Positions 2-6,202 of a stretch of 64,000 bases of DNA are shown here, one piece after another (the stretch's first letter is position 1; each line of letters begins with the position of its first letter). The translations under genes and the position numbers were made by a program. Source of the stretch: Lysobacteraceae bacterium (lineage in GTDB: Bacteria > Pseudomonadota > Gammaproteobacteria > Xanthomonadales > Xanthomonadaceae); the NCBI GenBank assembly GCA_023954075.1, contig JAMLIV010000016.1, positions 1 through 64,000 on the forward strand. The letters run 5' to 3'. The notes beneath the pieces are model-generated. The model had not been told where the DNA came from and ran no database searches. It saw nothing but the letters and a program-made list of their open reading frames with translations.

Positions 2-460
2 GTGGAGGCCGGCGAGAAGCTGGGCTTCCTGCCCGGCGACCTGACCCAAAAGGTCGACCCCTACCTGCGCCCGCTGTACGACGCGCTCTACGAGATGCTG
101 GGCGTGGAAAAGGTCGCCCGTCTGATCGAGCGCAACGTGATCGAAGTGGCCCCCTTGGCCTACATGCGCGGACGCACGCTCAACGACGCCTGGGTGATCC
201 TCGACGAAGCCCAGAACACCACGATCGAGCAGATGAAGATGTTCCTGACCCGCATCGGCTTCGGCTCCACCGCGGTCATCACCGGCGACCTGACCCAGAC
301 CGATCTTCCGCGCGGGCAGAAGTCCGGCCTGCGCGACGCGGTGGAAGTGCTGCGCGCGGTGGACGGGCTGAGCTTCACCTTCTTCACCTCGCACGATGTG
401 GTGCGCCATCCGCTGGTGGCGCGCATCGTGCGCGCCTACGAGAGCCGGGAGACCGCATGA
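2..460 (+). CDS. ybeZ: PhoH/YbeZ-family ATPase, C-terminal part (5' truncated by window)
   Basis: C-terminal 152 residues of a PhoH-family P-loop ATPase. The frame is already open at the left edge, so the N-terminus and Walker A are outside the window. The visible part has the Walker B stretch VILDEAQN (residues 65-72 of the fragment) followed by [13 protein letters not shown], both characteristic of PhoH. The family is a cytosolic ATPase linked to rRNA maturation through its partner YbeY. The last four bases overlap the ybeY start (ATGA), indicating translational coupling, and the ybeZ-ybeY-corC order is the classical gammaproteobacterial one. The assignment is secure; only the true start is unseen. 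Confidence 0.95.
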
Positions 461-939
461 TCCTGCCCGCCGGCGAATCGCTCGAGCTGGAGCTGGGCGT
501 CAGCTACGCCCTGCCGCGCCGCGGCCTGCCGGCGGCGGTGTCGTTCCGGCGCTGGGCCGCAGCGGCCCTGCAGGGCCGCGTCCGGCGCGCGGACCTCGCG
601 CTGCGGCTGGTGGACGAACGCGAAGGCTGCGCGCTGAACCGTCACTACCGCGGCAAGGACTACCCCACCAACGTGCTCAGCTTCCCGGCCGAACTGCCGC
701 CGGGCGTGGCGCTGGAGCTGCCGATCCTGGGCGACCTGGTGCTGTGCGCGCCGGTGGTGGCGCGCGAGGCGCGCGAACAGGGCAAGCCACTGGCCCACCA
801 CTACGCCCACCTCACCGTCCACGGCGTGCTGCACCTCCTGGGCTTCGACCACATCGACCCGCGCGAAGCCGAGGCCATGGAGCTGCTGGAGCGCCAGATC
901 CTCGCGCAGCTGGGTATCGCCGATCCGTATCGCGACTAG
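457..939 (+). CDS. ybeY: Endoribonuclease YbeY (rRNA maturation factor)
   Basis: A 160-residue single-domain metalloprotein of the UPF0054/YbeY family, usual length about 155. The zinc-binding signature H-G-x-L-H-L-x-G-x-D-H is intact, with His122, His126 and His132 as ligands. The upstream segment [18 protein letters not shown] is also typical. In characterised bacteria YbeY is a single-strand endoribonuclease acting in 16S rRNA 3' processing and 70S quality control. The start codon overlaps the phoH stop by 4 nt. About 100 nt separate it from corC. Confidence 0.96.
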
Positions 940-1038
940 CCTGTCGCTCCGCGCCGCCCGCGGTGCCACCACCCCGACGCCTTGGCATTTGGGCTAGACT
1001 CCCCTTCCCCAGAACTGACGGTCCATACCACCCCCAAG

Positions 1039-1890
1039 ATGCCCGAGGAACCCAGCAGTACCAGCGGCTCGCCGTCGAAATCCTGGCTTGAACGCCTTGG
1101 CCAGGCCCTTTCGAGCGAGCCGCGCAACCGCGAAGAGCTGGTCGACGAACTTCGCACCGCCCAGGCCAACGGCCTGCTTTCCGCCGAAACCCTGGCGATG
1201 ATGGAAGGCGCGATCAGGGTCACCGTGCAGAGCGTGGGGGATGTGATGGTGCCGCGCGCGCAGATGGTGTCGATCGATGTGGAATTGCCGTATCTCGACG
1301 TGGTGAAAGTCGCGGTCGAGTCCGGCCATTCGCGCTTTCCCGTGCACGGCGAGGACCGCGACGAGGTGCTGGGCATCCTGCTCGCCAAGGATCTCCTGCG
1401 CGCGGTCGCGGAGGGACGCCAGCCCGGAACCCTGCGAGAACTGCTGCGCCCCGCGGTGCTGATCCCCGAGTCCAAGCGCCTGAACGTGCTGCTCAAGGAG
1501 TTCCGCCTCACCCGCAACCACATGGCGATCGTGGTCGACGAATACGGCGGCGTGGCCGGGCTGGTGACGATCGAAGACCTGCTCGAACAGATCGTGGGCG
1601 AGATCGACGACGAGTACGACGACGAGCCCCATGAGGGCCTGATCGAGGCGCAGGCGGACGGGCGCTATGTGGTCGACGCGCTGACGACGATCGGCGACTT
1701 CAACAAGCGCTTCGGTGCCGACTTCGACGACAGCGAATACGACACGCTGGGCGGGATGCTGGCGGCGGCCATCGGCCACCTGCCGGAAACCGGTGAGGAA
1801 ATCAGCATCGGCCGCTTCGACTTCCGCATCGCGCGCGCCGACGCGCGCCGGGTTCAGGTGCTGCACATGACCGTGCGCGGCGATGCCTGA
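1039..1890 (+). CDS. corC: CorC/YbeX-type CBS-domain protein
   Basis: A 283-residue soluble protein of the HlyC/CorC family with paired CBS domains (about residues 70-190, including MVPRAQMVSIDVE and VVDEYGGVAGLVTIEDLLEQ) and a C-terminal transporter-associated CorC_HlyC domain (about 205-283). Homologues are named for a link to magnesium/cobalt efflux; E. coli YbeX is also tied to ribosome metabolism, so the exact job is open. I chose ATG 1039. The longer frame starts at a TTG (982) inside the ybeY-corC spacer and adds 19 residues lacking family similarity. The stop overlaps the next gene's start by 8 nt. Confidence 0.9.
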   Translation: MPEEPSSTSGSPSKSWLERLGQALSSEPRNREELVDELRTAQANGLLSAETLAMMEGAIRVTVQSVGDVMVPRAQMVSIDVELPYLDVVKVAVESGHSRFPVHGEDRDEVLGILLAKDLLRAVAEGRQPGTLRELLRPAVLIPESKRLNVLLKEFRLTRNHMAIVVDEYGGVAGLVTIEDLLEQIVGEIDDEYDDEPHEGLIEAQADGRYVVDALTTIGDFNKRFGADFDDSEYDTLGGMLAAAIGHLPETGEEISIGRFDFRIARADARRVQVLHMTVRGDA

Positions 1891-3136
1891 TCGCCTTGTG
1901 CCCGGCGCGCCGGGCAGGCGCGCGCCGGCCCTGCCGGGCGTCCTGTTGCTCCTGTGCGGACTCTGGCTGGCCTTCGCTGCCGCCGCGGCTCGCGCGCAGG
2001 ACGCCGCCGCGCCCCATCTGCCCCGCATCGGCGTGATGACGATGACGCCGGGCACCGAATACTGGGCGCGCTTCGGACACAATGCCGTCGTGGTGGACGA
2101 TCCCGAACGCGGCCTGCGCATCTCCTACAACTTCGGCTACTTCGACTTCGACCAGCCGGGCTTCTTCACCAACTTCCTGCGCGGAGACATGCGCTACCGG
2201 CTGGTGGCGATGACGCTCGAGGACGATCTGCGCGGCTATGCCGCCGAAGGCCGCGGCGCGACGCTGCAGTGGCTCGATCTGGACCCCGACCAGGCCATCG
2301 CCGTGCGCGACTACCTGGCCTGGAACGCGCGTCCGGAGAATGCCGAGTATCGCTACGACTACTTTGCCGACAACTGCTCCACGCGCGTGCGCGACGTGCT
2401 CGACCGCGCGCTCGGGGGAGAGCTTGCGCGCCAGCTCTCCGGGCGCTCGCACGGGCTGACCTACCGGGTCGAATCGCTGCGCCTGGGGGCCGGCATCCCG
2501 TGGATGGCGCTCGGGATGCACGTCGGTCTGGGCCCCTATGCGGACCGGCCGCTGTCGATCTGGGATGAGGCTTTCGTGCCGCGCCGGCTGGCCGATGCGC
2601 TGGATCGCGCCACCGGCACCTCCGGCCGGCCGCTGGTGATCGAACGCGTGCCGCTGCTGGAGGATCACCTGGGCCTGGAGCGGCCGGGCGCGCCGGCGCT
2701 GCGCACCGCGTTTGCCGCGGCCGGCATCGTGCTGGCGCTGGCGTTCGCCGTCCTGCTGCGCCCCGGCGCGGACCGCGCCGCGCGGCGCGCGGGTGCCGTG
2801 CTGGCGGCGGGATTCTGGCTGGCCTGCGGCGTGACCGGGCTGGTGCTGCTCGGGCTGTGGGGCTTCACTGACCACCGCGCGGCGTTCGGCAACGAGAACG
2901 TGCTGCTGTTCAACCCGCTGTGCCTGGCGCTGCTGGCCACCGTGCCGACGCTGCTGCGGGGAGAGATGCCGCACCCATGGCTGCGCCGCATCGCCCGCCT
3001 CGTGCTGGCCTGCGCGGTGCTGGCACTGTTTCTGCGCTTCCTGCCGTTCCTGGTGCAGAACAACGGCGACTTCATCGCGCTCATCGCACCGATCCACGCG
3101 GTGCTGGCGTGGCGGCTGCCGCACGCGCGCGGCTGA
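1883..3136 (+). CDS. DUF4105 / Lnb-like periplasmic-plus-membrane protein (candidate lipoprotein N-acyltransferase)
   Basis: A 417-residue protein: a hydrophobic N-terminal signal/anchor (about 18-38, ending ARAQD), a DUF4105 domain, then about five hydrophobic helices (around 273-293, 303-328, 340-358, 373-390, 396-411). The DUF4105 hallmarks are present: WARFGHNAVVV with His66 and YFADNCSTRVRD with Cys165, the pair expected for a papain-like thiol active site. The membrane part carries HRAAFGNENVLLFNPL, resembling the second conserved block of this family. Pfam names the domain Lnb, after a lipoprotein N-acyltransferase described in Bacteroides. The gene overlaps corC by 8 nt and sits where lnt follows corC in many gammaproteobacteria. 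Domain assignment is firm; acyltransferase activity here is inference. Confidence 0.75.
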   Translation: MPDRLVPGAPGRRAPALPGVLLLLCGLWLAFAAAAARAQDAAAPHLPRIGVMTMTPGTEYWARFGHNAVVVDDPERGLRISYNFGYFDFDQPGFFTNFLRGDMRYRLVAMTLEDDLRGYAAEGRGATLQWLDLDPDQAIAVRDYLAWNARPENAEYRYDYFADNCSTRVRDVLDRALGGELARQLSGRSHGLTYRVESLRLGAGIPWMALGMHVGLGPYADRPLSIWDEAFVPRRLADALDRATGTSGRPLVIERVPLLEDHLGLERPGAPALRTAFAAAGIVLALAFAVLLRPGADRAARRAGAVLAAGFWLACGVTGLVLLGLWGFTDHRAAFGNENVLLFNPLCLALLATVPTLLRGEMPHPWLRRIARLVLACAVLALFLRFLPFLVQNNGDFIALIAPIHAVLAWRLPHARG

Positions 3137-3268
3137 CATCGCGCGCCGTCCGTACATTCCCCGGGTTTTCCGCAGCGGTGGGAAGGAGCCGGCCCGCGCC
3201 GCGCCCGCAACCGCCGGTGAATCTGAACTACGCCTTCAGTCGAATGCTCGATTTCGCGGGGTGGTGGC

Positions 3269-3274
3269 TATAAT
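3269..3274 (+). promoter_or_regulatory. Candidate -10 element upstream of sucA
   Basis: A perfect TATAAT 85 nt before the sucA GTG, in the 228-nt gap after the DUF4105 gene. The -35 region at 17-nt spacing is poor (GCTCGA), so this is a tentative sigma-70 promoter for sucA-sucB-lpd. Confidence 0.45.
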
Positions 3275-3364
3275 CAGCGGCTGCCAGCCTCCCGTTTCAC
3301 CGGCGGCGCCTTACCTTTCCTCCCCACCAGCAGCGCCGGCATCGCCGGCCCCGGCAAGGCCATC

Positions 3365-6202
3365 GTGAGCAGTCTCATCCAAGAACTCCAGCAGTCGTCC
3401 CAGTTGGCCGGCGGCAACGCCGATTATGTCGAGGGTCTCTACGAGGCCTGGCTTGAAGATCCCGCCTCGGTTTCCGCGCAGTGGCGCCGCTATTTCGAAA
3501 CCTTCAAGGGCCGCGAGGCCGGTGACGTGCCGCACTCCGAAGTGCTCGCGCGCATCGCGCTGGCCGCGCGCATCGCACCCACGCTCGGCCCCAGTTCGGT
3601 GGTGAGCGACACCTATTCCGAAAGCCAGGGCGGCGTGCGCAAGCTCGTCACCGCCTACCGCTCGCGCGGCCACCTGGGTGCCAGCCTCGATCCGCTCGGC
3701 ATGGCCGAGGAGCCCGGCGCGCCGGACCTCGATCTCCCCTTCCACGGCCTCTCGCCGGCCGATCTCGACGTGGAGTTCACCACCGGCGCGTTCTTCGGTG
3801 CCGAGCGCATGCCGCTGCGCGCCCTGCTGTCCGCGCTGCGCGCGACCTACAGCAGCAGCATCGGCGCGGAGTTCATGCACATTTCCGATGCCGTCCAGCG
3901 CAACTGGATCTACCGCCGCATGGAGAATGCCGGCGGCAAGTTCGGCTACAGCGCACAGCAGAAGAAGCGCATCCTCGAACGCCTCACCGCGGCCGAGGGG
4001 CTGGAGCGCTATCTGCACACCAAGTACGTCGGGCAGAAGCGCTTCTCGCTGGAAGGCGGCGACAGCCTGATCCCGCTGCTGGATGCGGTGGTGGAACGCG
4101 CCGGCAGCGCCGGGGTGAAGGAAATGGTCATCGGCATGGCCCACCGCGGCCGCCTCAACGTGCTGGTCAACACCCTCGGCAAGCCGCCGCACAAGCTGTT
4201 CGACGAGTTCCTCGGCAAGTTCGACGCGCCCGACTCGCCCGACCACTCGGGCGACGTGAAGTACCACATGGGCTTTTCGTCGGACGTGCAGACCTCGGCC
4301 GGCCCGGTCCACCTGGCGCTGGCCTTCAATCCCTCGCACCTTGAAATCGTCAATCCGGTGGTCGCCGGCTCCGTGCGATCGCGCCAGATGCGGCGCGAGG
4401 ACGCGGCGCGCGAAGAGGCGATGCCGGTGCTCATCCACGGCGAGGCCGCGTTCGCCGGCCAGGGCGTGGTGATGGAAACCCTGCAGATGTCGCAGGCGCG
4501 CGGTTTTGCCGTGGGCGGCACCCTGCACGTGGTGATCAACAACCAGGTCGGCTTCACCACCAGCCGCGTGGACGACGCGCGCTCCACCCTGTACAGCACC
4601 GACGTGGCGAAGTTCGTCGGCGCGCCGGTGTTCCACGTCAACGGCGACGATCCCGAAGCGGTCGCCTTCGTGGCCCAGCTCGCCTTCGACTACCGCCGTG
4701 AATTCAAGCGCGACGTGGTGATCGAACTGGTCTGCTACCGTCGCCACGGCCACAACGAGGCCGACGAGCCGGCCGCGACCCAGCCGCTGATGTACCAGAA
4801 CATCCGCCAGCGCAAGACCACGCGCGAGCTGTACGCGGAAAAGCTCCAGTCCGCCGGCGTGCTGGCCGCGGGCGAAGCCCAGGCGATGGTCGATGCCTAC
4901 CGCGACAAGCTCGATCAGGGCGCACTCACCACCGAACTTGCAGCACCCGACGCCAGTATCCACACCGTCGACTGGTCGCCCTTCCTCAAGGGCACGCTGG
5001 CCGACGAAACGCCCACCAGCGTGCTGCGCCGCGATCTGGACGAGCTGGCGAAGCGCATCACCACCCTGCCCGCCGACCTCACCCTGCACCCGCGCGTGGC
5101 CAAGATCTACCAGGACCGCCAGAAGATGGCCGCCGGCGAGCTGCCGGGCGACTGGGGTTTTGCCGAGAACCTGGCCTATGCCAGCCTGATCCGGGAAGGC
5201 TACCGCCTGCGCCTGGTGGGTCAGGACTCCGGGCGCGGCACCTTCTTCCACCGCCACGCCGTGTTGCACGACCAGAACGACGGCCACACCTGGATGCCGC
5301 TGGCGCAGCTGGCCGGCAATCCCGAGCACGTCACCATCATCGACTCGCTTTTGAGCGAGGAGGCGGTGATGGCCTACGAGTACGGCTATTCCACTTCCGA
5401 CCCCAACACGCTCGGCATCTGGGAGGCGCAGTTCGGCGACTTCGCCAACGGTGCCCAGGTGGTGATCGACCAGTTCATCAGTTCGGGCGAGGCCAAGTGG
5501 GGCCGCCTGTGCGGCTTGGCGCTGTTCCTGCCGCACGGTTATGAAGGCCAGGGCCCCGAGCACAGCTCGGCGCGCCTGGAGCGCTTCCTGCAGCTGTGCG
5601 CGCTCGACAACATGCAGGTCTGCGTGCCCACCACGCCGGCCCAGGCCTTCCACATGATCCGCCGCCAGATGAAGCGCCCCACCCGCAAGCCGCTGGTGGT
5701 GATGACGCCCAAGTCGCTGCTGCGCCACAAGCTGGCGGTTTCCTCGCTGGAAGAACTGGCCAACGGCCGCTTCCAGAACCTCATCCCGGACAGCTTCGCC
5801 ACCGATCGGTCCAAGGTCACGCGCGTCGTCGCCTGCTCGGGCAAGGTCTACTACGACCTGCTGGAAGAAGCCCAGAAGCGCGGCCTGCAGAACGTCGCGC
5901 TGGTGCGGGTGGAGCAGCTCTACCCGTTCCCGCGCGAGGCGCTGGTGGCGGAAATCAAGCGCTTCGCCAACGCGACCGACCTGGTCTGGTGCCAGGAAGA
6001 GCCGATGAACCAGGGCGCGTGGTACCAGATCCAGCACCACCTGCGCTTCTGCCTGCAGGGCAAGCAGAAGCTCGGCTACGCCGGCCGCGTGCGTTCGCCC
6101 GCACCGGCGGCCGGGCAGCACCACACCCACGTGGTCGAGCAGGAGGGCCTGATCGAGGCCGCGCTCGTCGCCCCGCCCAACGGCGATCCCACCCGCGAAT
6201 GA
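3365..6202 (+). CDS. sucA: 2-oxoglutarate dehydrogenase E1 component
   Basis: A 945-residue thiamine-diphosphate-dependent decarboxylase, the E1 component of the 2-oxoglutarate dehydrogenase complex of the TCA cycle. The N-terminal SucA segment (YVEGLYEAWLEDPASVSAQW) is followed by the ThDP-binding core (FSLEGGDSLIPLLDAVV; MAHRGRLNVL), the transketolase-like pyrimidine domain (QDSGRGTFFHRHAVLHDQ) and the C-terminal domain (WCQEEPMNQGAWY). Length and order match E. coli SucA (933 aa). The start is a GTG. Next gene is sucB after 59 nt. A 964-residue open frame on the opposite strand is a GC-driven shadow. Confidence 0.98.
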   Translation: MSSLIQELQQSSQLAGGNADYVEGLYEAWLEDPASVSAQWRRYFETFKGREAGDVPHSEVLARIALAARIAPTLGPSSVVSDTYSESQGGVRKLVTAYRSRGHLGASLDPLGMAEEPGAPDLDLPFHGLSPADLDVEFTTGAFFGAERMPLRALLSALRATYSSSIGAEFMHISDAVQRNWIYRRMENAGGKFGYSAQQKKRILERLTAAEGLERYLHTKYVGQKRFSLEGGDSLIPLLDAVVERAGSAGVKEMVIGMAHRGRLNVLVNTLGKPPHKLFDEFLGKFDAPDSPDHSGDVKYHMGFSSDVQTSAGPVHLALAFNPSHLEIVNPVVAGSVRSRQMRREDAAREEAMPVLIHGEAAFAGQGVVMETLQMSQARGFAVGGTLHVVINNQVGFTTSRVDDARSTLYSTDVAKFVGAPVFHVNGDDPEAVAFVAQLAFDYRREFKRDVVIELVCYRRHGHNEADEPAATQPLMYQNIRQRKTTRELYAEKLQSAGVLAAGEAQAMVDAYRDKLDQGALTTELAAPDASIHTVDWSPFLKGTLADETPTSVLRRDLDELAKRITTLPADLTLHPRVAKIYQDRQKMAAGELPGDWGFAENLAYASLIREGYRLRLVGQDSGRGTFFHRHAVLHDQNDGHTWMPLAQLAGNPEHVTIIDSLLSEEAVMAYEYGYSTSDPNTLGIWEAQFGDFANGAQVVIDQFISSGEAKWGRLCGLALFLPHGYEGQGPEHSSARLERFLQLCALDNMQVCVPTTPAQAFHMIRRQMKRPTRKPLVVMTPKSLLRHKLAVSSLEELANGRFQNLIPDSFATDRSKVTRVVACSGKVYYDLLEEAQKRGLQNVALVRVEQLYPFPREALVAEIKRFANATDLVWCQEEPMNQGAWYQIQHHLRFCLQGKQKLGYAGRVRSPAPAAGQHHTHVVEQEGLIEAALVAPPNGDPTRE

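Follow-up and report, generated by a model that had tools for sequence, protein, structure and literature searches.

An Lnb-type protein encoded directly after corC very probably took over the role of the apolipoprotein N-acyltransferase Lnt in most of the Lysobacterales/Xanthomonadales

The window, the whole 64,000-nucleotide stretch of Lysobacteraceae DNA analysed here, begins with the first base of contig C8, which belongs to a genome of 2.65 Mb (31 contigs, 85.8% complete). Its first genes are ybeZ, ybeY and corC homologues, followed by a reading frame for a 417-residue protein and then by sucA, which starts at position 3365. The genes of this region and the features of the 417-residue protein are listed below.

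2..460, plus strand: ybeZ/PhoH-like gene, 5′ end lost at the contig start (Pfam PhoH)
457..939, plus strand: ybeY (Pfam YbeY)
982..1890, plus strand: corC (ybeX) homologue, 302 residues (Pfam CorC_HlyC and CBS)
1883..3136, plus strand: lnb-like gene, 417 residues, ATG start (open reading frame, with Pfam Lnb_N and 5TMH_Lnb above their curated cut-offs)
1883..1996, plus strand: predicted Sec signal peptide, residues 1-38 (hydropathy; AF2 helix 18-38)
2024..2668, plus strand: periplasmic catalytic domain, residues ~48-262, predicted as permuted NlpC/P60 (LRAT/YiiX/TseH-like) (AF2, VIA-align, Foldseek)
2078..2080, plus strand: codon of His66, predicted catalytic base, motif FGHNA (invariant in alignments A1 and A2)
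2375..2377, plus strand: codon of Cys165, predicted nucleophile, motif DNCST (invariant in alignments A1 and A2)
2702..3124, plus strand: five-helix membrane domain, residues 274-414 (Pfam 5TMH_Lnb, AF2, alignments, hydropathy peaks)

The lnb-like reading frame begins 8 nucleotides within the 3′ end of corC. A preliminary description of this DNA had placed the frame at 1883-3136 after ybeZ-ybeY-corC with the same overlap, and both the coordinates and the Pfam assignments of the neighbouring genes agree. A chance reading frame is excluded by the Pfam family matches, which lie far beyond chance. The corC gene marks a conserved slot that is occupied by lnt in other gammaproteobacteria.

The 417-residue protein matches Pfam families PF13387 (Lnb_N; 72.9 bits, cut-off 22.2) and PF25221 (5TMH_Lnb; 34.2 bits, cut-off 25.2), and no Pfam match to LNT_N or CN_hydrolase was found in it. 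The NCBIfam equivalog model for Lnb, NF051878, is covered over nearly its full length with a score of 160.3 bits, under the 550-bit cut-off. Among the reference proteins, the Lnb-type protein of Bacteroides finegoldii scores 667; since the proteins of Parabacteroides (398), Prevotella (378), Hymenobacter (220) and Flavobacterium (199) also fall short, the cut-off delimits a narrow Bacteroides subgroup. By sequence, the protein is thus assigned to the broad two-domain Lnb (DUF4105) family, outside the NF051878 equivalog subgroup. In alignment A2 it is 26% identical to the B. finegoldii protein and 24-31% identical to the Bacteroidota proteins overall, and this divergence, together with the score under the NCBI cut-off, sets it apart from the Bacteroides Lnb. 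The AF2 model (mean pLDDT 91.9) displays an N-terminal helix comprising residues 18-38, an α/β domain extending from about residue 48 to 262 and five C-terminal helices (274-291, 298-328, 346-359, 365-385 and 395-414). The predicted signal peptide has a hydrophobic core at residues ~17-35 and an AxA-type motif ahead of Gln39, before which cleavage presumably occurs. The two-part Lnb architecture proposed in the preliminary description, a periplasmic domain followed by about five membrane helices, is borne out by both Pfam domains and by the AF2 model.

The residues His66 and Cys165, which had been singled out previously, are correctly numbered and are invariant in A1 and A2, two alignments of 22 sequences from Pseudomonadota, Gemmatimonadota, Myxococcota and Bacteroidota. 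His331 and Asn337 of the membrane domain are likewise invariant. A sequence search of the PDB with the 417-residue protein revealed no relative, so structural likeness was assessed by fold comparison alone. The closest VIA-align matches of the periplasmic domain are TseH (PDB code 6v98; Z 12.2 and rmsd of 3.2 over 151 residues) and YiiX (PDB code 2if6; Z 11.0 and rmsd of 3.4 over 160 residues), both of which stand above the background, followed by lower matches to H-REV107 (Z 6.9) and TIG3 (Z 6.6). TseH (6v98) is also the best Foldseek match, with a probability of 1.00 but a weak E value of 0.02. The nearest folds of the modelled periplasmic domain are therefore permuted NlpC/P60 proteins, which are lipid-acting or acyltransferase-related, and PMC12994826 independently assigns DUF4105 to the same group. 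YiiX, LRAT/H-REV107, TseH and Tox-Act1 share with the window protein the fold of the catalytic domain and a histidine ahead of the cysteine (as described in PMC12994826), but they lack its signal peptide and five-helix anchor. Several of them are secreted effectors, in contrast with the window lnb, a conserved chromosomal gene within a housekeeping operon. Helical matches of residues 280-417 in VIA-align were to generic helix bundles and were set aside as uninformative.

The preliminary description had called for a search of the whole genome for lnt. No Lnt was identified in the recovered genome, in which the sole match, a stretch scoring 20 bits, falls within a nitrilase-type frame that shows no evident membrane N-terminus. 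As the genome is incomplete, the Lnt question was addressed through relatives. No Lnt match at an E value of 1e-20 or better is present in 307 of 398 genomes of the order, including the complete single-contig genome G007. Because the absence spans the order, incompleteness of this one assembly does not account for the missing lnt, and a gap was rejected as its cause. It bears equally on the proposal that the window gene encodes an accessory DUF4105 enzyme, with a normal lnt that either lies in the 14% of the genome lacking from the assembly or is too divergent to be detected. The fragmented and partial state of the genome would allow for that arrangement, and an Lnt-like paralogue (mostly 820-940 residues) scoring above the Lnt cut-off coexists with Lnb in 44 genomes of the order. 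However, the paralogues examined do not adjoin corC and are confined to a minority of genomes, the nitrilase-type fragment is the best that the window's own genome offers, and the slot of lnt is itself occupied by the lnb-like gene. The accessory role raised in the preliminary description is thus disfavoured, being largely refuted and very improbable.

Lnb is present in 387 of the 398 genomes of the order and in 339 of the 342 good genomes (completeness of at least 90% and contamination of at most 5%). The three good genomes without Lnb, G027, G037 and G040, display the three strongest Lnt scores (298-305 bits), while the Lnt score of every other genome of the order is at most 224 bits (Fisher p of 1.5e-7 for the exclusion of Lnb and strong Lnt, with relatedness ignored). 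Lnb and canonical Lnt are mutually exclusive in near-complete genomes of the order. G027 and G037 belong to the same genus, so that the exceptions do not constitute three independent events, and a single independent lineage may underlie the exclusion seen within the order. G040 is listed in the order but carries an alphaproteobacterial-like gene cluster, and its placement or assembly is doubtful: its SucA is ~50% identical to the window SucA and lies in broken pieces, and, within the plasmid collection searched, the closest relatives of its Lnt come from Shinella and Sinorhizobium. Across 398 sampled Pseudomonadota genomes, Lnt is found in 328 of the 337 good genomes, Lnb occurs in 10 genomes, all of them from this order, and no Lnb was found outside it. 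One genome of the order in this sample, G033, carries Lnb together with a long Lnt-like paralogue.

The two genes also share a position. In all 37 distinct genomes of the order that were examined, corC lies immediately 5′ of lnb on the same strand, and the same arrangement is displayed by the named Lysobacterales loci and by Hydrocarboniphaga. In G027 and G037 the post-corC slot contains a canonical lnt, and their corC products are 55-57% identical to that of the window. The gene order in G040 is miaB-phoH-ybeY-corC-lnt, where miaB and lnt were identified from translations and Pfam. Lnb and lnt thus alternate at one chromosomal position, being found after corC in 37/37 genomes and in G027, G037 and G040, respectively.

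In a maximum-likelihood tree of 62 Lnb proteins, midpoint-rooted for drawing only, the 49 proteins from the order and from named relatives constitute a single clade (support 96/87), within which families with several members mostly form their own groupings. A Gemmatimonadota/Myxococcota group adjoins this clade, and the Bacteroidota proteins are separate (support 100/100). The closest named relative of the 417-residue protein comes from a Lysobacteraceae bacterium. Matches to Lnb in the plasmid collection were confined to Bacteroidota and served as reference proteins. The simplest account of this topology is that Lnb was acquired once, early in the history of the order, and was inherited vertically thereafter. 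Homologues with the same invariant residues were observed in Gemmatimonadota (L072 and L078) and Myxococcota (L080). The Lnb of L086, a metagenome-assembled genome titled Proteobacteria (Chersky_194), groups with a Myxococcota sequence and has no adjacent corC, and its taxonomic label is probably wrong.

The window's genome contains lgt, lspA and lolD. On contig C27, a lolC/E-type gene (L104:5265-6656, minus strand) is followed by lolD (4562-5272, minus strand), and the encoded permease passes the general LolC/E model but fails the LolC- and LolE-specific models. A single LolC/E-type gene was found in 38 of 39 relatives, and this LolF arrangement seems to hold throughout the order. In bacteria with LolF, lnt and N-acylation are dispensable where tested (PMC7240156), and LolF is therefore thought to accept diacyl lipoproteins. 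A transporter of this kind may have allowed Lnt to disappear and Lnb to take its place with no lethal stage in between. The preliminary description had suggested the non-homologous replacement of an essential step: the replacement is supported, but with a LolF-type transporter in the order N-acylation cannot be assumed to be essential here.

These properties of the transporter also bear on a different account, in which N-acylation was truly lost in the order, diacylated lipoproteins are moved by LolDF and the DUF4105 protein does something else, such as the turnover of phospholipids or lysolipids or the hydrolysis of amides. N-acylation could be dispensable in the presence of LolF, and Lnb might then serve another function. 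A 2023 study found no Lnt gene in Xanthomonas campestris and, for this reason, modelled LolA and LolB with diacyl anchors (PMC10368991), and lipid hydrolase activity is described in PMC12994826 for other proteins of the permuted NlpC/P60 group. An unrelated hydrolase would, however, not be expected in nearly all good genomes of the order, in exclusion with strong Lnt and in the slot of lnt, and the protein resembles Lnb over both domains, including the invariant residues of the membrane domain. Loss of N-acylation is thus considered unlikely.

The gene very probably encodes an Lnb-type apolipoprotein N-acyltransferase that took both the job and the slot of Lnt in an ancestor of most of the Lysobacterales/Xanthomonadales. 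The absence of Lnt from the window's genome and across the order, the mutual exclusion of the two genes and their common place after corC all favour the non-homologous replacement put forward in the preliminary description. Counted against it are the NF051878 score (160, below 550) and the 44 genomes in which an Lnt-like protein stands beside Lnb. The N-acyltransferase activity of the 417-residue protein is predicted from homology, and its presumed reaction, acyl-donor lipid and thioester, like the role given to the membrane helices, are extrapolated from the Lnb family. By analogy, Lgt and then LspA would yield a diacylglyceryl-cysteine apolipoprotein, and the periplasmic domain, anchored by the five membrane helices, would be positioned on the outer face of the inner membrane. 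His66 would activate Cys165, which would accept a phospholipid acyl chain in thioester linkage. Attack on this thioester by the α-amino group of the lipoprotein Cys+1 would produce a triacylated lipoprotein, to be handed to LolD/LolF, LolA and LolB. A broader reading, also considered probable if somewhat less so, is that one ancestral in-place swap of Lnt for Lnb, enabled by a LolF-type transporter tolerant of diacyl intermediates, accounts for the whole order, including by extension Xanthomonas, Stenotrophomonas and Xylella, and that the lipoproteins of these bacteria are triacylated. Xanthomonas is classified in the Lysobacteraceae, Lysobacterales, and its inclusion follows from this taxonomy.

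The kind of enzyme is already known, and what is added here is the very probable replacement of Lnt across an order. Lnb was experimentally identified as the N-acyltransferase of Bacteroides (Armbruster 2024 PNAS, as cited in PMC12994826 and PMC11694511). The window protein shares with it the two-domain architecture, the invariant His and Cys, the His and Asn of the membrane domain and the lack of Lnt in the same genome. The genomic setting is different: two Bacteroidales lnb copies adjoin an alkaline phosphatase-family gene and secA, whereas the window lnb lies in the post-corC slot of lnt. The host, a LolDF-type gammaproteobacterium, differs as well, and the activity is here a predicted one. 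With Lnt, the window protein shares the predicted reaction, the place after ybeZ-ybeY-corC and the company of lgt and lspA, but the two are unrelated in sequence and fold, a papain-like Cys/His arrangement contrasting with the Glu-Lys-Cys nitrilase site of Lnt. PMC12994826 (2026) describes three genomic contexts in which Lnt displaces DUF4105 proteins, and a DUF4105 clade that is primarily, although not exclusively, from Bacteroides, with one Firmicutes-enriched branch. The main text of that study does not mention ybeX, corC, ybeY, Lysobacter or Gammaproteobacteria; its figure or tables may include the locus.

The window protein could fill the place of the “missing” Lnt in Xanthomonas-type bacteria, in which diacylated lipoproteins were assumed (PMC10368991). 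If the proposed role is correct, lipoproteins of the order carry three fatty acids and not the two assumed in the literature, and antibiotic strategies directed against Lnt would lack their target in these bacteria. The order would be a clear example in which an unrelated enzyme has inherited both a core step in the envelope and the operon position that goes with it, and the proposal that exchange between Lnt and Lnb is permitted by a LolF-type transporter can be tested there.

The Lnt-like proteins that coexist with Lnb include a long and a shorter group. The long type, displayed by L046:3644-6106 (plus strand) and by similar reading frames in some 40 further genomes of the order, mostly comprises 820-940 residues with LNT_N, CN_hydrolase and a C-terminal region without a Pfam match. 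In G006 the gene adjoins those for a subtilisin-like protease and a lipase-like protein. A mixed system, in which Lnb is the main N-acylator and the long paralogue, where present, shares its substrates or donors, would accommodate both the coexistence and this proximity to secreted-protease and lipase-like genes; it is inapplicable to the window's genome, where no paralogue was found, and is considered improbable. In L044, a 525-residue Lnt-like protein (1418-2992, plus strand) is followed by a 308-residue protein without a Pfam match (3018-3941, minus strand) whose sequence, judged by eye, is similar to the C-terminal part of the long proteins, like a split fusion. The shorter group, comprising L048:3389-4813 (plus strand) and similar reading frames mostly of family f12, has about 475-500 residues with LNT_N and CN_hydrolase, scores roughly 80-114 bits and likewise coexists with Lnb. 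G012 carries a long Lnt-like paralogue together with an lnb (L057:3073-4211, minus strand) that has an apparent frameshift past about codon 178, 3′ of the Cys motif, reflecting either decay or a sequencing error.
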